NCBI GenBank assembly: GCA_030625775.1
Contig: DAOUQC010000017.1
Location: forward strand, 1 to 62,313
DNA: 62,313 nucleotides
Origin: Verrucomicrobiota bacterium
Lineage (GTDB): Bacteria; Verrucomicrobiota; Verrucomicrobiia; Verrucomicrobiales; DEV007
Reading direction: 5' to 3'
Made by a program: the position numbers and the translations under genes. The notes below the pieces were generated by a model. It worked only from the letters and a program-made list of their open reading frames with translations. It was not told the origin of the DNA and did not search any database. This document shows, in pieces, positions 23,224 to 62,313 of the stretch (position 1 is the first letter of the stretch; every line of letters starts with the position of its first letter).

Positions 23224-24969
23224 ATGACAACAGCAACAGATACCAGCGATGCCCCCGCTCCATCAGTGAATGATCCAAACAACACGGCTAGCGTTATTAT
23301 TGGAGCTGATCACGGTGGCTATGATCTGAAAGAAGCGGTGGTGAGTCATTTGCGAGCTACAGGTCACCAAGTGGAGGATATCGGAACGAACTCCAGTGAG
23401 TCGGTGGATTACCCGGATTTTGCGCATCAGGTTGCCTGTGACGTGGCGGCGGGGAAGCACAAATTTGGCATTCTCTGCTGCACCAGCGGCATTGGTATGA
23501 GTATTGCGGCGAACAAACACCCGGATGTTCGTGCGGCGATTGCGGATGATGTTGAGACGGCTGAGACCACTCGTATCCACAACAACTCGAATGTGCTGTG
23601 TCTGAGCGGTGCCCGGGTTGACAGTGAATTGGCTGGAGACATTGCGGACATCTTTTTGGCCACGCTGTTTGAAGCGGGTGGCCGGCACGAGCGTCGGGTG
23701 GATAAATTGGAAGCATCCGGCTGTGGAAATTCTGGTAAAGATATTGCTTCGGTGGATCCGGCGGTAGCGGCTGCGATTGCGGATGAAGCGGTGCGCCAGC
23801 AGAACAACATTGAGCTGATCGCTTCGGAAAATTTCACCAGCAAGGCAGTGATGGAGGCACAGGGTTCCGTGCTGACCAACAAATACGCCGAGGGTTATCC
23901 GGGCAAACGCTGGTATGGAGGTTGTGAGAATGTTGACGTGATCGAAACCCTGGCTATCGAGCGTGCCAAGAAATTGTTTGGTGCGGGTTTTGTGAATGTA
24001 CAGCCGCACAGTGGTTCGCAGGCGAATGCAGCGGTTTATTATTCGGTATTGAACCCCGGTGATAAAATCCTGACCATGGAGTTGTCGCATGGCGGGCATT
24101 TGACCCATGGTCATCCGGCGAATTTCTCCGGCAAGTTTTACGAAGTCCAGCACTACGGCGTTTCGAAAGATACCGAGAGGGTTGACTACGATGAGCTTGC
24201 CAAGGCGGCCAAGGAGTTCAAGCCGGATATGATCACAGCAGGTGCTTCGGCCTATTCACGGGTGATCGACTGGCAGCGCATGCGTGAAATCGCCGATTCG
24301 GTGGACGCGTATTTGTTTGTCGACATGGCCCACATTGCCGGACTCGTGGCAGGCGGTGCACACCCTTCACCGATGGAGCACGCGCATTTTGTCACCACCA
24401 CGACGCATAAAAGTCTGCGTGGACCACGTGGCGGTCTGATCATGACGAACGATGCTGGCCTCGCCAAAAAAATCGATTCGATGGTGTTTCCAGGAACCCA
24501 GGGAGGCCCCTTGATGCATGTGATTGCTGCCAAGGCAGTTTGTTTGCTCGAAGCCCTGCAGCCTTCGTTTAAGGATTACGTGGCGCAGATTGTGAAAAAC
24601 ACCGCGGCTCTGGCAGCGAAGATGGAAAGCAATGGCTACCGAATCGTATCGGGTGGATCGGACAATCATGTGTTCCTCGTCGATCTGCGCGACGCAGGGT
24701 TGAATGGCAAGATTGCCCAGGAAACCTTGGATCACGCCGGTATCACGGTGAACAAGAACTCAATTCCTTTTGATACCGAATCACCTTTCAAGGGTGGCGG
24801 TATTCGTATAGGCACTCCAGCGGTGACCACTCGCGGAATGAAAGAGGGAGAGATGGAGATGGTTGCTGATCTGATTCACGAAGCTCTGTCGCATCGTGAG
24901 GATCCCGCGAAGTTGGAGGAGATCCGTCTGCAGGTGATGGATCTGAACAAAGGATTTCCTTTGCCTTGA
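23224..24969 (+). CDS. rpiB-glyA: Fused ribose-5-phosphate isomerase B and serine hydroxymethyltransferase
   Basis: The 581-residue protein joins two enzymes. Residues about 20-165 are Rpi[13 protein letters not shown], the catalytic-cysteine segment [16 protein letters not shown] and [13 protein letters not shown]. From about residue 175 follows complete Gly[27 protein letters not shown] and the PLP lysine in [10 protein letters not shown] (about 396). RpiB interconverts ribulose- and ribose-5-phosphate; GlyA makes glycine and methylene-THF from serine. No stop or frame break lies between the parts, so one polypeptide is made. The zwf gene starts 4 bases downstream, linking it to the oxidative pentose phosphate route. 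Confidence 0.93.
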
Positions 24970-35387: not shown

Positions 35388-36455
35388 ATGGCTTGGAAAA
35401 TTGCAGGGATTAATTTTGATCACTTTCACATGGGGGATCTGTTGCGCATGGTAGACGATCATCCGGGCGCGGAACTCGTGGGAATCTCCGACGAGCAACC
35501 GGAGCGGATGCAGGAGGCGAAGGCTAATTTTTCTCTGCGAGAAGAGCAGATTTTTACCGACTACAAAGAGTGTCTGGAAAAAACCAGGCCTGATCTGGTG
35601 ATCCTTTGCCCGGCGGCGGCCCGGCATGCGGAGTGGACCGAAAAGGTTGCTCCCTATGGAGTGCATATTTTGATGGAAAAACCTTTTGCGGCTTCCCTGG
35701 CAGATGCTGACCGCATGGTCGAGGCCATGAAGGGAAAAGGGAAACATTTGGCAATCAACTGGCCGCTGCGATGGGCACCGGTACAGGTCAAGGCACATGA
35801 CTTGATCGATGAAGGGGTGATTGGAGAGGTGCTGGAGGTGCATACCTACGGAGGCAACAGCGGGCCATTGCGCCATGGGGCTGACAAAAACGAACGCGAA
35901 CCCAGTGCCGAGGAAAAGGCGGCTTCCTGGTTTTACCAAAAAGCGGAAGGCGGAGGCAGCTTGATGGACTACATGGGTTACGGAACTACTTTGGGGACTT
36001 GGCATCTTGGTGGCAAAAAACCGATTGAAGTGAGCTGCATGATGGATGAGCCCGATGGTCTGGAAGTGGATGAGCACAGCGTAACGACGGCTCGATATGC
36101 CAGCGGCCTTTCTACTTTTGAAACCCGTTGGGGAACCTTTACCGATCCGTGGACGCTTCAACCCCAACCGAAGTGTGGCTTTGTGATGGTGGGCAGGGAG
36201 GGGACACTGAGCTGTTATGAGTATGAAAAAATAATCCGGGTGCAGACGCGGGAATGTCCGCAGGGCTTTGAAGTGGACGTACCTGACTTGAATGCTCCCT
36301 TTGTCAATCCGGTGCAGTATTTCATCCACTGTCTGGAAAACAATTGCGAAATCGAAGGCCCTCTCAGTGTGGAAATATCCAGAATTGGACAACAGATCGT
36401 AGATACCGCAGTCCTGAGCGCAAAGGAAAAACGCACGGTGCCTTTGTTGGGCTAA
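35388..36455 (+). CDS. Gfo/Idh/MocA-family oxidoreductase
   Basis: The 355-residue protein has an N-terminal NAD(P)-binding fold and the family EKP motif (HILMEKPFAASLADADRM, about residue 97), followed by the alpha-beta C-terminal domain. Members oxidise or reduce sugars and inositols. The usual GxGxxG is degenerate here (GINFDHFHMG), so cofactor binding may differ. No Tat signal is present. It is divergent from the cyclophilin gene across a palindromic repeat. Confidence 0.85.
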   Translation: MAWKIAGINFDHFHMGDLLRMVDDHPGAELVGISDEQPERMQEAKANFSLREEQIFTDYKECLEKTRPDLVILCPAAARHAEWTEKVAPYGVHILMEKPFAASLADADRMVEAMKGKGKHLAINWPLRWAPVQVKAHDLIDEGVIGEVLEVHTYGGNSGPLRHGADKNEREPSAEEKAASWFYQKAEGGGSLMDYMGYGTTLGTWHLGGKKPIEVSCMMDEPDGLEVDEHSVTTARYASGLSTFETRWGTFTDPWTLQPQPKCGFVMVGREGTLSCYEYEKIIRVQTRECPQGFEVDVPDLNAPFVNPVQYFIHCLENNCEIEGPLSVEISRIGQQIVDTAVLSAKEKRTVPLLG

Positions 36456-36529
36456 GCAGGGCATGCTTTGTCGTTATTTGTTGCCTTGTATTGACATGAT
36501 GCACTATTTGTGATCCGATTCACAACATC

Positions 36530-54475: not shown

Positions 54476-54587
54476 GCCATCCCAATGCTGCTTTTGGGAT
54501 CGCGGACTTTCCCCTTCACTCCTCATATTTACTCCCCTATAATTACTGGACTCAGGCTGATTTTCGGCTAGTTAGTGGTCACAAATT

Positions 54588-55907
54588 ATGTCCGCGAGTT
54601 CCCAATACCAGCAAACGCTTGCCCAGTCATCGAGCCTCACCGGCACCTCCCTGCACACCGGTGAGAAAGTGACTCTCACCATCAAACCTGCGCCAGTGGG
54701 ACATGGATTCAAATTTCGCCGCATCGATCTAGATGACCAGCCCTTCATAGAAGCACTGGTTGAGAATGTGCAAAAGGTCGAGCGAGCGACGACTTTGGCT
54801 AAGGGGTCGGTCAAAGTCCATACCGTTGAACATGTAATCTCAGCGCTCACCGGCATGGGCATTGATAATGCGCTGATCGAAATGGACGCCAATGAACCGC
54901 CGATCGGGGACGGCTCGGCAGCTCCCTACGTGGAGTGTATCAAAAAAGCGGGGATTGAACAGCAGGATGAATACCGCAGTGTTTTTGAAGTGAGGGAGCC
55001 GATCCATCTGGAAACACGGGACGGCTCCATCATCACGGTGGTGCCGGATAAAGCCTTCCGTATTTCGTGCACCCAGGTGGGACCGGACGGACGCATGACT
55101 CAGTATTTCAGTACAGAGATTACTCCGGAAATTTACGAAAAAGAAATCGCGCCCGCGCGCACTTTTGTTTTTTACGAAGACGTCGAGCCATTGCTGGAAA
55201 AAGGGCTTATTAAGGGAGGCAGTCTTGAGAATGCGATTGTGGTTAGGGGCGATTCGGTTATGAGTAAAGAGCCGATGCGTTTCACCGAAGAGTTTGCCCG
55301 GCATAAAATTCTCGACCTTATTGGTGATTTGATGTTGTCAGGAAAACGGATCATGGGCCATGTGATCGCGGTTAAACCCGGTCACGCTCCGAACACGGAA
55401 ATGGCCCGGCGATTGTCATCGGATTTCGGACGCCTGATGGCGATGGTGCCTCCGGTGAATATTCCTACCGGAAAATCGGTGATGGATATTACCGAGGTGC
55501 AGCGGGTGTTGCCACACCGTTACCCTTTCCTGATGCTGGATCGGGTGGTTGATTTTGAGGGTGACAACAAGTGCACCGGGGTTAAACAGGTCACGGTGAA
55601 CGAACCTTATTTTCAAGGGCATTTCCCCGGCCATCCTATCATGCCGGGGGTGCTGCAATTGGAAGCGATGGCCCAGGTATCGAGCATTCTGCTGCTGCGC
55701 CAAGAGGGCAATCAGGGGAAAATCGGTTATTTCATGAGTGCGGACAAAGTTAAGTTCCGCAAGCCGGTGTTCCCCGGTGATACGCTGTTTATCAAAGCTG
55801 AAATTTTGAAGATCCGTGGATCCATTGGAGTAGCGGCGGTGCGTTGTATAGTCAACGACGAGGTCGTCTCCCAGGCCGATTTAAAGTTTGCTCTGATGGA
55901 CGTTTGA
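54588..55907 (+). CDS. lpxC-fabZ: LpxC-FabZ fusion: UDP-acyl-GlcNAc deacetylase and hydroxyacyl-ACP dehydratase
   Basis: The 439-residue protein joins LpxC (residues about 5-285; EHVISALTGMGIDNALIE and GDLMLSGKRIMGHVIAVKPGH) to FabZ (from about 298; LPHRYPFLMLDRV and FQGHFPGHPIMPGVLQLEAMAQ with the catalytic His). LpxC commits to lipid A synthesis; FabZ serves fatty-acid synthesis and competes for the same precursor. This fusion is known in Bacteroidetes and PVC bacteria. lpxA follows after 26 bases. Confidence 0.95.
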   Translation: MSASSQYQQTLAQSSSLTGTSLHTGEKVTLTIKPAPVGHGFKFRRIDLDDQPFIEALVENVQKVERATTLAKGSVKVHTVEHVISALTGMGIDNALIEMDANEPPIGDGSAAPYVECIKKAGIEQQDEYRSVFEVREPIHLETRDGSIITVVPDKAFRISCTQVGPDGRMTQYFSTEITPEIYEKEIAPARTFVFYEDVEPLLEKGLIKGGSLENAIVVRGDSVMSKEPMRFTEEFARHKILDLIGDLMLSGKRIMGHVIAVKPGHAPNTEMARRLSSDFGRLMAMVPPVNIPTGKSVMDITEVQRVLPHRYPFLMLDRVVDFEGDNKCTGVKQVTVNEPYFQGHFPGHPIMPGVLQLEAMAQVSSILLLRQEGNQGKIGYFMSADKVKFRKPVFPGDTLFIKAEILKIRGSIGVAAVRCIVNDEVVSQADLKFALMDV

Positions 55908-55933
55908 TCCGCCTCGAAATGTGCTAGCCCGAT

Positions 55934-56710
55934 ATGTCCGAAACCAGTATTCACCCCACCGCCATTGTCGATGCGGCAGCTGAGCTTGCCGCAGGGGTTC
56001 GCATCGGTCCCTACTGTGTGATTCGCGGTAAAGTGACGATTGGTGAAGGCTCGGAATTACTCAACAACGTCACCATTGAAGGGCCGACGGAAATTGGACA
56101 GGGGAATTTTTTTCATACCGGAGCCATGATCGGGGGCAGAACCCAGGATCTGAAATATGACGGAGAACCTACCTATTTAAAAATAGGTGATCACAATAAT
56201 TTCCGCGAATGTGTGACAGTGAACCGGGCGACTGAGAAAGGGGGGGCAACCACCATCGGTAGTCACGGCAATTTTCTCGCCTACAGCCATATCGCCCACG
56301 ACTGCATCGTCGGGGATCATGTTATTTTTTCCAATAACGGTACTCTGGCGGGGCATGTCACGATGGGAGATTACGCTATTCTGGGTGGACTGACGGCAGT
56401 GCATCAGTTTTGCCGGATCGGGGATCATGCGATCACCGGGGGCTGCTCGAAAATTGTGCAGGACATTCCCCCCTACATGATCGCTGATGGCAATCCTGCG
56501 AAGGTGCGGGCAGTCAATACAGAAGGTTTGCGCCGCCGTGGTTTTGATGATGCAAGCATCCGTTCGATGAAAAAAGCTTACCAGCAACTCTACCGCAAGG
56601 ATCTGAATAAAACGGCCGCACTCGAAGCTTTGGCAGAGTTGGATGATCCGAGTGGAGCCGTGGCAAAGCTGATCGAGTTTGTGCGCAGCACCGAGCGGGG
56701 GGTTCATTAG
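55934..56710 (+). CDS. lpxA: UDP-GlcNAc O-acyltransferase
   Basis: The 258-residue protein is a left-handed beta-helix of hexapeptide repeats (IGPYCVIRGKVTIGEGS) with the LpxA-type catalytic histidine in AYSHIAHDCIVGDHVIF and DLKY, and a helical C-terminal domain. It adds the first acyl chain in lipid A synthesis. It follows lpxC-fabZ on the same strand. Confidence 0.95.
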   Translation: MSETSIHPTAIVDAAAELAAGVRIGPYCVIRGKVTIGEGSELLNNVTIEGPTEIGQGNFFHTGAMIGGRTQDLKYDGEPTYLKIGDHNNFRECVTVNRATEKGGATTIGSHGNFLAYSHIAHDCIVGDHVIFSNNGTLAGHVTMGDYAILGGLTAVHQFCRIGDHAITGGCSKIVQDIPPYMIADGNPAKVRAVNTEGLRRRGFDDASIRSMKKAYQQLYRKDLNKTAALEALAELDDPSGAVAKLIEFVRSTERGVH

Positions 56711-56719
56711 GCCTTTTTG

Positions 56720-58519
56720 ATGATTCCCGCTAGATATTGCCTGCTTGTGCTTGCCCTGGTTTTTTCCAGCTTGCATGGAATCGCCGCAGAGCCTGAAACC
56801 AGGAAAGAGAAAAAGGCGTCGCGTTCTTTGCAAAGTCAGAAATACGCGGTGAGGATCAGTGCAGAGGTCCAGCAGGATCCGCCACAGATCAAGCTGCTCT
56901 GGCCGAAAGCAGAGTGTCTGTCTTATGTGTTGTATCGGCGGGCATTTGGAGGCAAACACTGGAGTGCGGCTCCGGCAGCCGTATTAAAAGGAGAGGCCAC
57001 ATCCTTTATTGATAAAAAAGTTAAAATCGGTGAGCAATATGAATACCGTATCGATAAGTTTGCCGCGGCTTATGTCGGGCGTTCTTACCTTTGCAGCGGC
57101 ATTGATCTACCGCTGGTGGAAGATCGTGGTGCGGTATTGTTGCTGGCAGAGTCGGGCATCGCGCTTGCGCTCGACAAGGAACTTCTGCAACTCTCACACG
57201 ATCTGGCCGGGGATGGCTGGCGGGTGATCCAGCGGCAGGTTTCCCGTGATGATTCAGTCGGAAAAGTGCGTCAGCTGATTCGCAAAACCTGGCGTGAAAA
57301 TAAAACGGATCTGAAAACGCTTTTCCTGTTCGGGCATATTCCCGTGCCCTACTCAGGGTCGATCAATCCCGATGGTCACAAAAACCATCTCGGTGCCTGG
57401 CCGGCGGACCTGGTCTATGCCGATGTGGATGGCCAGTGGACGGACAAAGATACCCACAAAACTTTCAAGCGAGGCAATCAGCAGAATATCCCCGGCGATG
57501 GCAAATACGATCAGGATACGATCGCAGCTAATTCGCTGGAACTTGAAGTGGCACGGGTGGATCTTGCCAACATGCCGGCTTTCAAGCTGAGCGAAACCGA
57601 CCTGCTGCGCCGTTACTTGAATAAAAACCATGATTTTCGCCACGCTCGAATGCCAGCGCAGTCCAAGGGTTTGATCGATGATAATTTTGGGGCTTTCTCC
57701 GGTGAAGCATTCGGCTGGGGTGCGTGGTCTAACTTTGCGACATTTTTTGGCGAAGGGAAAACCGCTGACCTGGATTGGTTTTCCACCCTGCCAAAGACAG
57801 CCTATTTGTGGGCCTACGGTTGCGGGGGAGGCAGCAATAACAAAGCGAATGGAGTGGGTTTCACCAAGGACTTTGCCGGGCAAGGCTCCAAGGCCGTTTT
57901 CACCCTGTTGTTTGGCAGTTATTTCGGTGATTGGGATCACCCTGATAATTTCCTGCGAGCTCCCCTGGCTGCCGAAGGTTACGGGTTGACCTGCGCCTGG
58001 GATGGTCGTCCTCATTGGTTTTTCCACTCGATGGCGATGGGAAAAAATATTGGCTACTCAGCTCTGAGAACCCAGGCCAACGATTTTTACAGCGATTACC
58101 TGGGCCCCGACAATACCCGTCTGACGCTTTCGGGAAAAAATGACGATTCCGAGTGGGAGCCGAATCCAGTCCATGTTGCTCTGATGGGAGATCCGACTCT
58201 GCGTTTGCACATCGTTCCACCGCCGACCGGGGGTTCCGTGGCGAATAGAAATGAGGGAGCCTTGATCAAATGGCAAAAACCATCTGGTTCCCTAAAGATA
58301 CCAGAGGAGGATCTCGCCTATCTGGTCTATCGAGCGGGCAGTGAAAAAGGGCCCTTTAAGCGGCTGACAGAAGAACCCATCACGGCGACGCACTTTCTGG
58401 ATGCAAGCAAGCCCGCCGCCGGGGTGGTTTATCTGATCAAGACCTATGTCAGGCAGCTCAGTGCCAGTGGAAGTTATTTTAATACCAGCCAGGGGCTGTT
58501 TTTGAAATTGGAGAAGTGA
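56720..58519 (+). CDS. Secreted C25-like (caspase-fold) protein with fibronectin-like modules
   Basis: The 599-residue protein has a signal peptide (IPARYCLLVLALVFSSLHGIAA), an N-terminal beta-rich module, a central region with LFLFGHIPVPYSG, YLWAYGCGGGS and GDPTLRLHIV, and a C-terminal beta-rich module. The GHI (His), GCGGG (Cys) and GDPTLRL texts resemble gingipain-type C25 peptidases, where the last motif marks the end of the catalytic domain. The assignment is tentative. Start ATG 56720 is chosen over TTG 56717. It lies 9 bases after lpxA. Confidence 0.6.
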   Translation: MIPARYCLLVLALVFSSLHGIAAEPETRKEKKASRSLQSQKYAVRISAEVQQDPPQIKLLWPKAECLSYVLYRRAFGGKHWSAAPAAVLKGEATSFIDKKVKIGEQYEYRIDKFAAAYVGRSYLCSGIDLPLVEDRGAVLLLAESGIALALDKELLQLSHDLAGDGWRVIQRQVSRDDSVGKVRQLIRKTWRENKTDLKTLFLFGHIPVPYSGSINPDGHKNHLGAWPADLVYADVDGQWTDKDTHKTFKRGNQQNIPGDGKYDQDTIAANSLELEVARVDLANMPAFKLSETDLLRRYLNKNHDFRHARMPAQSKGLIDDNFGAFSGEAFGWGAWSNFATFFGEGKTADLDWFSTLPKTAYLWAYGCGGGSNNKANGVGFTKDFAGQGSKAVFTLLFGSYFGDWDHPDNFLRAPLAAEGYGLTCAWDGRPHWFFHSMAMGKNIGYSALRTQANDFYSDYLGPDNTRLTLSGKNDDSEWEPNPVHVALMGDPTLRLHIVPPPTGGSVANRNEGALIKWQKPSGSLKIPEEDLAYLVYRAGSEKGPFKRLTEEPITATHFLDASKPAAGVVYLIKTYVRQLSASGSYFNTSQGLFLKLEK

Positions 58520-58621: not shown

Positions 58622-58649
58622 TTGCATAGCTAAGCGGACTCATTAATAC
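58622..58649 (+). promoter_or_regulatory. Putative intI promoter
   Basis: TTGCAT (58622-58627) and TAATAC (58644-58649) are spaced by 16 bases and place the start of transcription next to the intI ATG at 58657. The -10 box lies inside the left arm of the palindrome described separately, so a bound repressor could block it. Confidence 0.4.
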
Positions 58650-58674
58650 TGTTCATATGATCAGTATTAATGAG
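58639..58674. promoter_or_regulatory. 36-bp palindrome over the intI start codon
   Basis: Perfect 13-base arms CTCATTAATACTG (58639-58651) and CAGTATTAATGAG (58662-58674) flank a loop with CATATG, in which the intI ATG (58657) sits. All but one of the 18 base pairs match. It may be an operator or a hairpin that hides the start codon. Confidence 0.65.
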
Positions 58675-60069
58675 GGTCCAAAATCGGGGGTGGAGTCCGA
58701 CTGGCAGAGATTTATGAATCTGCTTAAAGAGGATTCCAAAATCAAGGTGGAAGCCCATTCGCACTACGGGCGCTGGGTAAGTGATTGGCTGAAAGTGGGG
58801 GGACGAGATTCCGCTACAGCTACAAAAAACTTTTTCGAGGAACTGGGCCGACGGAGTAATTTAAAGGATTGGCACTACATTCAGGCGGTATTTGCGGTGG
58901 AGCTTTGGGCAAAAAAAGTCGAGCAACTCAAATGGGCGACATCGTTTGACTGGAGTGGGTTAGCGGCTCAAGCGGTGGACTTGGAAAGTTCTCACCGTAC
59001 GCTGTATCGGGAAACCCACCAAGCTCAATCCCGGACCCGTATGAATCAGATCCCTGCCCCCGGACCTAATGACCGTATTCCAGCCAAGGGTGAAAAAGAA
59101 GCCATTGAGGATCTCGTCATGGAAAGCCAGAAAGCCATTCGCTTGGCTGGATTGGCCGTGATGACTGAAAAAACCTATCTTTCCTGGATCGTGCGTTTTT
59201 CCAGATTCAGAATGCGGCGGCTAGGGCAGGGGCTACGGGAATTTAACCCCGAAGCCCTCAGCCTATACCTGGAATACCTAGCTCTGGAAAGGCAAGTTTC
59301 CCCATCAACCCAGAAGCAGGCGCTTAATGCCTTGGTCTTATTGGGTAAAAAAGTATATGGCGTTGCGGAGTTTGAGCTGGACTTTAAACCAGCTTGGAAA
59401 GGCTACCGTCGCCCGCCTACGGTGATGACTCGGGAAGAGGTGAAAAAGGTTATTGGGTTTTTAGAAAATCCATGGAAAATGATCGTGCAACTGATGTATG
59501 GCAGTGGTCTGAGGCAGAGCGAGGTTTTAAGGCTGAGAGTCAAGGATATCGATTTTGGTCAAGGAGCCATTGCTATCCATGATTCAAAAGGGGGCAAACA
59601 CCGGTTGGTTCCGCTTCCCAAGGCGTTGGAGCAACGGTTGCAGGAACATTTACGGCTAGCCAGAGAAAAGCACCAAGCTGATTTGGCGATAGGACTAGGG
59701 GAAGTACACTTAACGGAATCCCTACGACGCAAATATCCCAATGCTGCAAAAGAATGGCTCTGGCAACACGCTTTCTCCTCTGCCAAACTGTGCGCCCATC
59801 CGAGAACCGGACATGTGGCGCGACACCATTTGCATGAAAAATCACTTGGTCGCCAAGTGAAAGCAGCAGCAACTAAAGCACGAATACCAAAACGAATTTC
59901 CTGCCATACGTTCAGGCATTCATTTGCTACCCATCTTCTTGAGGCGGGCGTTGATATCCGTACGGTTCAAGATCTTCTGGGGCACGCCGATGTGTCTACG
60001 ACGATGATCTATTTGCATGTCATGAAACGGCCGGGAGCGGGAGCACCGAGTCCGCTAGATTTCACTTAA
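58657..60069 (+). CDS. intI: Integron integrase IntI with N-terminal extension
   Basis: The 470-residue tyrosine recombinase inserts and excises gene cassettes. From about residue 150 it has a SAM-like domain, then the catalytic domain: GSGLRQSEVLRLRVKD (Arg, about 283), HTFRHSFATHLLEAG (His-x-x-Arg, about 418) and TTMIYLH (Tyr, about 451). The insert VHLTESLRRKYPNAAKEW and the end HVMKRPGAGAPSPLDF are specific to IntI. About 140 extra N-terminal residues look like a degenerate second core-binding domain. It points towards the cassettes, unlike classic integrons. Confidence 0.95.
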   Translation: MISINEGPKSGVESDWQRFMNLLKEDSKIKVEAHSHYGRWVSDWLKVGGRDSATATKNFFEELGRRSNLKDWHYIQAVFAVELWAKKVEQLKWATSFDWSGLAAQAVDLESSHRTLYRETHQAQSRTRMNQIPAPGPNDRIPAKGEKEAIEDLVMESQKAIRLAGLAVMTEKTYLSWIVRFSRFRMRRLGQGLREFNPEALSLYLEYLALERQVSPSTQKQALNALVLLGKKVYGVAEFELDFKPAWKGYRRPPTVMTREEVKKVIGFLENPWKMIVQLMYGSGLRQSEVLRLRVKDIDFGQGAIAIHDSKGGKHRLVPLPKALEQRLQEHLRLAREKHQADLAIGLGEVHLTESLRRKYPNAAKEWLWQHAFSSAKLCAHPRTGHVARHHLHEKSLGRQVKAAATKARIPKRISCHTFRHSFATHLLEAGVDIRTVQDLLGHADVSTTMIYLHVMKRPGAGAPSPLDFT

Positions 60070-60258
60070 ACGGCTTTGCTTTTCCAAATACATTTTTTAC
60101 CATCAAAATAACCCAAATTTTCTTTACAAGGCCTCGCATCCAGATAAAATCGGCTGCGAAGTGTAGGAGACGAAGTCTGCCCGAGGGGGTTACCTTTGTA
60201 CCTGTTATCCAGACTGTCCGCAATAATATGTTATTCAGGACAGTTCCATATTATACTG
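60070..60258 (+). other. Integron attI region
   Basis: The stretch between the intI stop and the first cassette boundary holds a putative cassette promoter and a palindrome: ACTGTCC (60213-60219) and GGACAGT (60238-60244), with inner AATAA/TTATT. It ends at the G of the core site GTTGACC (60258-60264), where cassettes insert. No gene is present. Confidence 0.6.
60123..60150 (+). promoter_or_regulatory. Putative cassette promoter (Pc-like)
   Basis: TTTACA (60123-60128) and TAAAAT (60145-60150), spaced by 16 bases, match the sigma-70 consensus at 5 of 6 positions each. It lies just upstream of the attI junction and points into the cassettes, which have no other obvious promoter. Confidence 0.5.
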
Positions 60259-60278
60259 TTGACCGGAATAATTACAAA

Positions 60279-60878
60279 ATGCGATTTGATCGACACCTCG
60301 TGATAAAATCGCGAAATCGGATGATCTATTGGTGGGTCGCTACGCCCTTCATTATGCTTGCCGGTTTTTTCGTCATGGGTTTTGATGGTGAGCTTGAACT
60401 TCAGGGCGCAATCTGGTCTCTACTGACTGCGATTCCTTACATTATTTACTGCTCCTTATTTTTTTGGCGAGTATGGGCGACACCTAGCTCCCATCGCACT
60501 GAATCTGATGTGCGAAGTATTTCGCGAATATTGGCTATTTGTATTCTAGTTTTTATTGGTGTGCAATTTATACCGATAACAGTAGTGCCTGACTTTACTG
60601 TTAATGACACATGGATTCCGCTTTGGGTAACTGGAACCATTCGAGGCTGGGGCTTCCCCTATTTTGTAGCTCGTGAATTAATCGCCAGCTTTGACCTAAA
60701 AGAGCTTTACGGTTCTTTATGGCGCGGCTCTATGGTAATCGATTTCAGTGCAGTAAAGGGAAACCTTCTTACTGGTCTATTTTTACTGTACCTTTTACAC
60801 TGGAGATTGTGCTCTAGATGGCATAAGCCAACCCAACTAACAGAAGACGGTCAACAAAAGTCAGCACCGAATCCCTGA
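60279..60878 (+). CDS. Cassette 1: four-helix membrane protein of unknown function
   Basis: The 199-residue protein has about four transmembrane helices (YWWVATPFIMLAGFFVMGF, LLTAIPYIIYCSLFFWRVW, ILAICILVFIGVQFIPITVV and GNLLTGLFLLYLLHW) and no recognised family. The cassette starts at 60259, so the upstream ATG at 60228 lies outside it and ATG 60279 is the likely start. The 3' end of the frame overlaps the start of attC1, as in many cassettes. Confidence 0.75.
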   Translation: MRFDRHLVIKSRNRMIYWWVATPFIMLAGFFVMGFDGELELQGAIWSLLTAIPYIIYCSLFFWRVWATPSSHRTESDVRSISRILAICILVFIGVQFIPITVVPDFTVNDTWIPLWVTGTIRGWGFPYFVARELIASFDLKELYGSLWRGSMVIDFSAVKGNLLTGLFLLYLLHWRLCSRWHKPTQLTEDGQQKSAPNP

Positions 60879-60975
60879 GCCGTTCCGTAGTCATGATTTA
60901 CTTTAACTTTAAAAATCCACCATTTCGTCAGCGCGCGCTCCCGCTCAGGGATACGGTGTGACTCGATCGTTCTGC
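60849..60975 (+). other. attC1 site (cassettes 1/2)
   Basis: The left core GGTCAAC (60849-60855) is the exact complement of the cassette 1 boundary GTTGACC. The arms CACCGAATCCCTGAGC (60865-60880) and GCTCAGGGATACGGTG (60943-60958) pair at 15 of 16 positions and extend, with bulges, to AAC and GTT. The right core GTTCTGC (60969-60975) starts cassette 2. Confidence 0.8.
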
Positions 60976-60990
60976 CTCAATAATAAGCGG

Positions 60991-61473
60991 ATGAGAATCG
61001 CCACTTTCACAACGCTCGTATTATTAAGCATTATCGGAGCAAGCTGTGCAACGTCACCGGATTTTGACGTGAAAACAGTTGATGCGGTATCGGGAAAGTC
61101 CATTTCTGGAGTTAAGGTTGATCTGTCTACTACGCATTATACCGGCAGGAAGAGTTTCGATATTGAGAAAAGTATTTTGGGCAAGACTGACGTTCAAGGC
61201 TTGGTAAATGTTGGAAGATTAAATAACTATTCCAGAGGTCATTCACTTTCCTTTGTAAAGGCGGGATATAATAAAATGTCTCTATTTGTTCGGGAGCTAG
61301 ATGGAAAACACTTTTGCATAATTATAAACAGCCATGGCGATCATATAGGTTACGTGAGAATCACGGAATCTGGAGTAGTGAAAACTAGCGATATTGCCGA
61401 TATTGAATTTATTGGCAACTCTGTAACGCACTCTGAAGCCATGGTAGTTAAAATTCCTATGCGGCGTAAGTAA
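60991..61473 (+). CDS. Cassette 2: lipoprotein with Ig-like/carboxypeptidase-regulatory-like fold
   Basis: The 160-residue protein has a lipoprotein signal ending SIIGASC. The mature part (DFDVKTVDAVSGKSISGVKVDL, then GKTDVQGLVNVGRLNNYSRGHSLSFVKAGYNKM) resembles a carboxypeptidase-regulatory-like beta-sandwich. No function is assigned. The cassette starts at 60970, so ATG 60991 is preferred over the GTG at 60958. Confidence 0.75.
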   Translation: MRIATFTTLVLLSIIGASCATSPDFDVKTVDAVSGKSISGVKVDLSTTHYTGRKSFDIEKSILGKTDVQGLVNVGRLNNYSRGHSLSFVKAGYNKMSLFVRELDGKHFCIIINSHGDHIGYVRITESGVVKTSDIADIEFIGNSVTHSEAMVVKIPMRRK

Positions 61474-61485
61474 GCGTGAGTAAAA

Positions 61486-61596
61486 GCAGAACAACAAGGC
61501 GGAGGCAGCCGTGGTGATCACTAACCTTGACTCTGTGAGACTGTTCGTTCTATAATCGCTGCGAGGCACGGATGCCTCACCACTTAAACGTTATAC
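61486..61596 (+). other. attC2 site (cassettes 2/3)
   Basis: The left core GCAGAAC (61486-61492) is the exact complement of GTTCTGC at the start of cassette 2. AAGGCGGAGGCAGCC on the left pairs, with bulges, with GGATGCCTCACCACTT on the right. The right core GTTATAC (61590-61596) starts cassette 3. Confidence 0.8.
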
Positions 61597-61604
61597 CTAA
61601 AAAG

Positions 61605-62000
61605 GTGACTATTGAATCCCCTCATATATCAAAGAGCACCCTTGCTACGCATGAGTCGATAGAAGCGACTATCCAATCGCTAATAGATGTAAAGGATGAT
61701 CCGTTTGCGATCCTCAATGGCGAAAAAGAAGGGTATTATATGCAGACTTTACTAACGCCTATCTCATTTGTGGTTGAATACCAAGAAGGCTCATTGGATG
61801 CTCATTTTGAATCAATAAGATCAGATATATCAGCGGAAGAGGTGATTGGAGTGTTTTGTGACTACGCAGCAGGGAATGAAACTTGGAAAGCGCGAATCGA
61901 ATTTAAGAAAATGGAAGAACATCGCTCATTTCTCTATCACATAGGCTATAAGCTGGGAAAAGTTTTGGGCAATATTTCAGCTTTCATAGGAATAAAATAG
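61605..62000 (+). CDS. Cassette 3: hypothetical protein
   Basis: A frame of 131 codons from GTG 61605 encodes a soluble protein with motifs SIEATIQSLIDVKDDPFAILNG and YMQTLLTPISFVVEYQEGSLDAHFE; no family is recognised. The ATG at 61572 lies inside attC2, upstream of the cassette boundary (61590/61591), so the GTG is the likely start; no strong ribosome binding site is visible. The stop overlaps the core of attC3. Confidence 0.65.
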   Translation: MTIESPHISKSTLATHESIEATIQSLIDVKDDPFAILNGEKEGYYMQTLLTPISFVVEYQEGSLDAHFESIRSDISAEEVIGVFCDYAAGNETWKARIEFKKMEEHRSFLYHIGYKLGKVLGNISAFIGIK

Positions 62001-62137
62001 TATAACAAACGAGAGCAGGTAATTCCTTTCCCGTCATCAGTTCTCTTGCCTTCTGGCTTCGATTACATCACAATTCTATTCAAAAGAGTAAGGGCTTCGT
62101 TCCAGGAATCACCTGTCTGGTGGTGTAAAAGTTTGTC
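62000..62137 (+). other. attC3 site, right end tentative
   Basis: The left core GTATAAC (62000-62006) is the exact complement of GTTATAC at the start of cassette 3. CAGGTAATTCC and GGAATCACCTG pair inside the site. A possible right core GTTTGTC (62131-62137) would start a fourth cassette, but this boundary is weaker than the other two. Confidence 0.6.
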
Positions 62138-62157
62138 TGTAAAAGCAGTGGACATGG

Positions 62158-62216
62158 CTTCCCCTTGCCTCACCGCCGATGGAGCGTAGCGGAATCGGCG
62201 GCGAGGCAAGGGGAAG
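62158..62216. repeat. Near-perfect 23-bp inverted repeat near the window end
   Basis: The arms at 62158-62180 and 62194-62216 (beginning CTTCCCCTTGCCTC) pair at 22 of 23 positions around a 13-base loop. It follows the probable attC3 and lies in what may be a gene-poor fourth cassette. The 97 bases after it to the window edge show no gene that I can support. Confidence 0.6.
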
Positions 62217-62313
62217 TGCCAAATGATTGGTAGGTGTCCGCCCCGGGCCGGATACTGAAGGTGTAACAACAACTGCACCAACCATGGACGAACAGACACA
62301 AAATACCAATAAC

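Follow-up and report, generated by a model that had tools for sequence, protein, structure and literature searches.

A same-strand integron of Verrucomicrobiota and attI docks found without an adjoining integrase gene

Integrons typically have one attI site close to the integrase gene, and the cassettes nearest to it are the likeliest to be expressed, as passages of PMC9024848 describe. Departures from this plan are known. The chromosomal integrons of Treponema (T. denticola type), which belong to another phylum and are compared here by description only, have an inverted integrase, IntI, and the passages of the literature that describe them do not mention attI copies without intI. In Xanthomonas, too, arrays lacking intI occupy fixed positions in the chromosome alongside a single intI locus; a functional IntI is said to be able to mobilise these clusters of attC sites without a proximal intI, termed CALINs, in trans, and the passages concerned describe no attI at their head (PMC12444791). 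Pieces of attI away from their usual place are likewise found in the delta-attI cassettes of class 1 and class 2 integrons, as excerpts of PMC12901181 report. Here we describe an integron at the end of a 62,313-nucleotide stretch of DNA from an uncultured Verrucomicrobiota bacterium (contig DAOUQC010000017.1, referred to below as the window), which makes up the whole of contig C79 in a draft genome of 158 contigs. Its intI is read towards attI and the cassettes, and both its own genome and its relatives hold further attI sites, here called docks, with no intI found beside them.

The integron identity of the locus is close to certain. An earlier first-pass annotation had proposed an integron with its integrase directed towards the cassettes, whose boundaries are self-consistent, and this is supported by a match of the integrase to TIGR02249, by a covariance model of attC and by the core rule set out below. 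The same-strand layout is already known from the literature; the docks are the new observation. They differ from delta-attI pieces, which replace attC inside the array of the same integron, in that longer attI segments here head separate arrays; the attI2 core AATAAAATGTT resembles the AATAA(A/C)ACTGTT of this clade, so far as the available part of PMC12901181 shows. They also differ from the CALIN definition, which in the passages of PMC9024848 does not require attI, in that the dock arrays carry attI or part of it. No description of multiple loci with attI but no intI was found in titles and abstract openings of the openly licensed literature, which is not proof of absence.

The attI site of the window lies at 60187–60260 on the plus strand. 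Behind intI, 37 of the 41 integrase loci obtained from a scan of genome contigs end in AATAA(A/C)ACTGTT, with variants, and beyond this point the loci differ; a common segment followed by divergence therefore marks attI and its crossover, which is expected in the window between G60258 and T60259. Four loci fall outside the alignment, one with no recognised site (L037) and three at contig ends (L047, L056 and L073), and for 17 of the 37 sites the preceding intI is seen by tblastn as 3' or broken pieces only (L058–L072, L074 and L075). An attI model built from these 37 relatives with the window excluded, R2, finds the site at E 9.1e-5 in the genome.

Boundaries of cassettes follow a simple rule, by which the core at a cassette start is complementary to the core of the cassette's own attC. 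The first-pass annotation had read this rule from six cores, all of which are present where it placed them, and had judged the matches unlikely to arise by chance. Both points hold in the relatives, where the complementarity is exact in 32 of 37 neighbouring attC pairs, against a mean of 3.2 and a maximum of 9 for shuffled partners (2000 shuffles). In three of the five exceptions the pair extends over more than 2 kb, and an intervening attC may have been missed. Since the rule is symmetric it cannot give the direction of an array; polarity is given by the asymmetry of the attC arms and by gene strand. In the relatives, 55 of 63 cassettes have their longest open reading frame (ORF) on the attC strand, seven have it on the opposite strand and one is a tie; each of the window's three cassettes has it on the attC strand, as the first-pass annotation had it.

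Two further copies of attI are present in the genome of the window. The segment 60070–60264 recurs at C147:3813–3973 (79%) and C31:14861–14952 (95%), with no intI found nearby in either case, and R2 recovers C147, C79 and C31 and nothing else below E 0.9. On C147 a promoter-like sequence comes first, then attI, then a cassette in keeping with the core rule, with an attC that matches the first attC of the window at 79% over 121 bp. C31 ends exactly at GTT, behind genes that we take to be rfb-like. On C82 just the last 20 attI positions (E 0.98) stand ahead of an array of three attC sites, and the core rule is again obeyed. As attC clusters without a neighbouring intI, the C82 array and the dock arrays of relatives are CALINs. 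A further attI-like match, on C63 (82% over 38 bp), was not confirmed by R2.

Over 141 genomes, with stricter filters, R2 matched 15 genomes, and 31 of the 34 places examined (33 from this search and one added from a further search) end at GTT or directly before one; the others, two matches in G084 and one in G117, do not end at GTT and are taken as chance. Eight of the 31 attI places have a same-strand intI in cis (some of them broken), two have a 3' remnant of intI, one has a divergent intI and two have too little sequence upstream. The remaining 18 have no intI that could be found in the upstream sequence examined, at least 361 bp. Twelve of these 18 have attC behind them in the same orientation (only weakly in G026:C15); for the other six, at most 746 bp downstream were examined. 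The core rule holds for the first cassette at 14 of 17 attI–attC pairs, a set that includes one site with a divergent intI, two with intI remnants, two whose upstream is unknown and the partial site on C82. Five of the 18 are in one genome, G015, two of them on a single contig (C323; L147 2835–8822), where five attC sites lie between the two attI and the array runs into the second dock, with no intI found.

The closed genome G078, a single contig, has one same-strand and one divergent integrase, together with four arrays that have attI-like heads and attC behind them, and no intI in the 13–19 kb examined around these heads. Three were found by R2 beyond the intI-linked match (E 2.6e-5, 9.2e-5 and 1.14) and the fourth by the core rule itself; two of the four are weak by sequence. 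Of the three heads that the search detected, two fit the core rule exactly and the third has one mismatch. The head with E 1.14 is no better than two of 12 short matches taken as chance, and therefore leans on the attC behind it.

Copies of attI are more alike within a genome than between genomes, with an identity of 0.87 (27 pairs) compared with 0.69 (183 pairs), a difference reached in none of 5000 label permutations, by a statistic that ignores the kinship of the genomes. The nearest neighbour of 18 of 21 docks is in the same genome, the exceptions being three docks of G002. When docks of one genome are compared in 30-bp blocks from the crossover upstream (G002:C382 excluded), identity falls from 0.91 through 0.84, 0.56, 0.37 and 0.31 to 0.27; between their first cassettes it is 0.28. 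The likeness stops about 60–170 bp before the crossover. Cassettes common to two docks would suggest recent exchange; stretches of 230–279 bp, 83–92% alike, occur in genome M30B22, in loci L048 and L058.

One chromosomal site is found with and without intI in two congeners. The integron of the window is preceded on the plus strand by chromosomal genes at 54588–58519 (presumably lpxC-fabZ-like and lpxA-like genes, with an ORF of 600 codons) that are syntenic in G002:C382, where 54534–58494 of the window matches at 77%. There, a candidate cassette promoter (Pc) and attI are followed by two attC sites, with no intI; the Pc–attI segment matches at 82% over 88 bp, and its last bases are AACGTT instead of ACTGTT. 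Elsewhere in G002, an intI broken into three frames stands beside another attI.

We favour the reading, at a probability of about 0.55, that one integrase serves several attI docks in trans and that the attI dock, rather than the intI–attI pair, is the working unit in this clade. The complete locus would comprise an integrase gene that is probably under SOS control, followed behind its stop codon by Pc and attI and then by cassettes on the same strand, with short attI segments, some with their own Pc, at several other chromosomal places, mostly heading cassette arrays of their own. A single IntI would insert and remove cassettes at all of these docks, and the benefit would be that several cassettes at once occupy the first, expressed position. 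Service in trans explains why the attI sequence is kept, why the arrays behind it have the right polarity and why attI copies are alike within a genome. Recombination by IntI between two attI sites has been reported, according to a passage of PMC8946536, and such attI x attI events could spread or homogenise docks.

Several observations weigh against service in trans. At least one attI without intI is present in 11 genomes, only five of which have an apparently intact same-strand intI (G000, G001, G026, G062 up to its contig end, and G078). The gene is broken in G002 and G015, and none or only fragments were found in G066, G056, G029 and G117, two of which (G066 and G056) are 94–96% complete. 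Docks in such genomes can therefore only be relics or be served by another integrase. The 3' intI fragments before attI in relatives (L058–L075) show that integrase loss does happen. The docks of G002 are not each other's nearest neighbours, the arrays of the window's own genome share no stretch of 150 bp or more except attI itself, and no recombination event was seen at any dock. The arrays on C119, C2, C83, C100, C114 and C113 have no attI in the sequence examined, some being cut by contig ends, and the cassettes of C31 are unseen because the contig ends at the crossover. Most of the genomes are draft assemblies in which the searches scored part of the candidates, so that the counts are lower bounds.

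The main alternative, to which we give a smaller but substantial weight, is that the attI sites without intI are remains of complete integrons, duplicated or acquired, which have lost the integrase while arrays and attI have not yet decayed. Decay of complete integrons would explain the missing or broken integrases in six of the 11 dock-bearing genomes, it fits the 3' fragments of many relatives, and the window's own chromosomal site lacks intI in G002. It accounts less well for the docks of the window's genome, G015, G066 and G078, next to which no intI remnant was found, for the end of likeness so close to the crossover that little but attI is kept, for the likeness of attI copies within a genome, and for the apparently intact intI of five dock-bearing genomes, the closed one included. 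Service in trans and decay may both hold in turn, the docks being live while any integrase is intact.

Insertion of cassettes by IntI at ordinary genomic sites (attG), which needs no dock, has been reported (cited in PMC12901181 and PMC12444791, in the portions available), and some arrays of the window's genome show no attI in the sequence examined. As a general account it is improbable, because the array heads share about 60–170 bp of attI, more than a GTT core, and matches to the attI model sit directly before arrays; it is disfavoured for R2-positive arrays and may yet account for others, C113 or C114 for instance. That the window holds an ordinary operon with chance repeats is scarcely credible, for although two of its attC sites are weak when taken alone and the other is not prominent in one scan, there remain the IntI match, the covariance score of that other site, the core rule as seen in the relatives, and the congener in which the same site holds attI and cassettes of different content.

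The same-strand layout is a trait of one supported clade of Verrucomicrobiota integrases. Among the 41 loci, 24 have attC at E ≤0.01, and in 23 of these it lies behind intI, or its remnant or 3' piece, on the same strand; 57 of 58 attC matches are on the plus strand, the remaining one being the mirror image of another. In the odd locus, L056 (538–3137), two attC sites share the strand of intI and precede it, and the contig ends soon after intI. Strand calls at sites used to train the attC model depend on that training; two training elements that had to be reversed, from L023 and L029, show that the directions are distinguishable. In eight loci the layout is divergent, attC preceding intI on the opposite strand (L020, L023, L025, L028, L029, L030, L033 and L146), and their integrases are more distant (36–46% identity). 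In a midpoint-rooted tree all 24 same-strand rows fall in one clade with 100/100 support and all eight divergent rows fall outside it; 17 rows are unlabelled, six of them inside the clade, and L038, L042, L045 and L053 were labelled by attI position alone.

The window's cassettes lie in tandem, bounded by attC sites of one polarity that are of unequal strength. A stem scan of both strands of the whole 62-kb window for core pairs with complementary arms (threshold 9) gives four places, the three attC sites proposed in the first-pass annotation and 24048–24141. The covariance model, R1, was built from 28 aligned attC-like elements near the integrases of relatives, with the window left out and the L023 and L029 elements reversed because their arms read the opposite way. 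RNAalifold found no common pair in a MAFFT alignment of the attC sites, so R1 was given a structure set manually according to the arms. The proposal of three attC sites stands clearly for the first, less firmly for the second and only weakly for the third. attC1 (60849–60975, R'' GGTCAAC, R' GTTCTGC) is strong, scoring 38.4 bits (E 1.7e-8 when 10 kb are searched and 8.1e-6 over the whole genome) and folding better than most shuffles. attC2 (61486–61596, R' GTTATAC) is fair, with 13.6 bits and E 0.016 in 10 kb, and is missed over the window with default filters; it does not fold better than most shuffles. The model starts it at 61489 instead of 61486, and its R'' depends on the criterion: the self-match rule gives GCAGAAC, the family pattern GAACAAC at 61489. 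attC3 (62000–62137, R'' GTATAAC, proposed R' GTTTGTC at 62131) gives just a 47-base match of 6 bits (E 1.1). The stem scan pairs 62000 with the core at 62131 over 138 nt, and the strand does fold in this pairing, no better than shuffles; this weak candidate is suggested by its exact self-match, its arm match and its position.

A second scan, which combined the end patterns of relatives' attC with the arms and compared the window with 20 shuffled windows, ranks attC2 first at 36.3 (best shuffled window 29.0). It speaks against attC1, which scores just 24.5 with a different 5' end, misses attC3 and gives 28.1 to an unrelated place at 36387–36479. A search of the window against Rfam gave no match. 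In the whole genome, with scores for 150 of 645 candidates, R1 finds at least 12 attC at E <0.01; they lie on contigs C119, C82, C2, C83, C100, C114, C147, C79 and C113, and attC2 is not one of them.

The boundaries make the revised starts of three cassette genes given by the first-pass annotation plausible. Cassette 1 (60259–60969) probably has its gene at 60279–60878, an ORF that reaches 216 residues if read from 60228, inside attI; its product is membrane-protein-like by eye. The gene of cassette 2 (60970–61590) is probably 60991–61473, encoding a product that by eye resembles a lipoprotein, and neither product matches a Pfam family. Cassette 3 (61591–62131) probably has its gene at 61605–62000 with a GTG start, the alternative ATG at 61572 falling in attC2, and has just a sub-threshold Pfam match. 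All are on the plus strand, as is the start of an incomplete cassette 4 (62131–62313), in which the array is cut off because the window ends with the contig at 62313. Within this cassette, 62158–62216 holds a 23-bp inverted repeat, 96% complementary around a 13-nt loop, of which no second copy was found in the genome. Elsewhere in this genome, cassettes on C119 (L091 701–1711) that sit among three attC sites carry a ParE-like ORF, just below the Pfam cut-off, and an addiction-module component.

In the window attI adjoins intI, as judged by comparison, together with a candidate Pc, judged by consensus match only. The latter, TTTACA-N16-TAAAAT (60123–60150, plus strand), lies between intI and the cassettes and reads into them, and a similar sequence occupies the equivalent position in C147 and, in the congeners G001 and G002, at their intI-linked sites. 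An inverted repeat lies inside attI at 60213–60244. Five of six other attI sites fold, as single strands, better than most shuffles; RNAalifold finds no common pair in attI, and we therefore claim no conserved hairpin. An ATG inside attI reads in frame past the crossover (60228–60260) into the first cassette gene, as MLFRTVPYYTV; C147 has the same reading and C31 the same start, and some relatives lack it. The reading resembles the short ORF in attI1.

The intI gene (58657–60069, plus strand) is intact and encodes 470 residues, of which 157–468 match TIGR02249, the integron-integrase model, at 355.7 bits (cut-off 265); matches to Phage_integrase and to a SAM-like domain are also present. Residues R286, K311, H417, R420, H443 and Y452, which we take to be catalytic, are invariant in an alignment of 20 sequences. 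The nearest solved structure by sequence and fold is IntI4 (PDB 2a3v), aligned over residues 167–467; at 320 residues, it has no counterpart in the alignment to an N-terminal extension of about 155 residues (residues 1–155, 58657–59120) that precedes the usual IntI body in the window. No Pfam family reaches its cut-off in this extension. It is predicted to form a helical bundle, whose closest matches by fold, at only E 0.75 and worse, are core-binding regions of Cre, XerA and IntI4, and our guess from this model is that it may be a second core-binding (DNA-binding) domain of the tyrosine recombinase type. The extension is common to same-strand and divergent-layout integrases of the order, and is therefore no explanation of the layout. 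The genome also encodes a second integron-type integrase, on C73 (L077 8597–9178), which is 44% identical and cut by the contig end; no attC was found near it in the 9 kb examined.

A palindrome across the start codon of intI (58639–58674) holds TGTTC-N4-GATCA (58650–58663), one mismatch from TGTTC-N4-GAACA, which we take to be the LexA motif of Verrucomicrobia. None of 200 random stretches of the window contains as good a match. In a survey of 18 clade members, with four intI starts estimated, 15 have a box with at most one mismatch near the intI start, nine of them with no mismatch at all; for L035, L037, L038 and L012, random stretches match equally well in 8–26% of cases. Two exact sites are present in the window's own genome, one of them directly before an ORF that is presumably dinB/imuB-like. 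From this box we propose SOS control of the integrase, which the favoured reading supposes.

Taken further, service in trans would make these distributed integrons, in which attI would exist as independent docks in multiple copies, all of them loaded by one SOS-controlled integrase, with several cassettes first and expressed at once and with attI evolving in concert with the integrase of the genome; this fuller picture we offer tentatively, at a little short of even chances. The present work provides an attI alignment for the clade and a testable link between the evolution of attI and that of the integrase. If one enzyme does serve several docks without intI, more than one captured gene can be expressed from the first position in the same cell, cassettes can still come and go at a site that has lost its integrase, and among the arrays at present classed as degraded CALINs there could be live ones.

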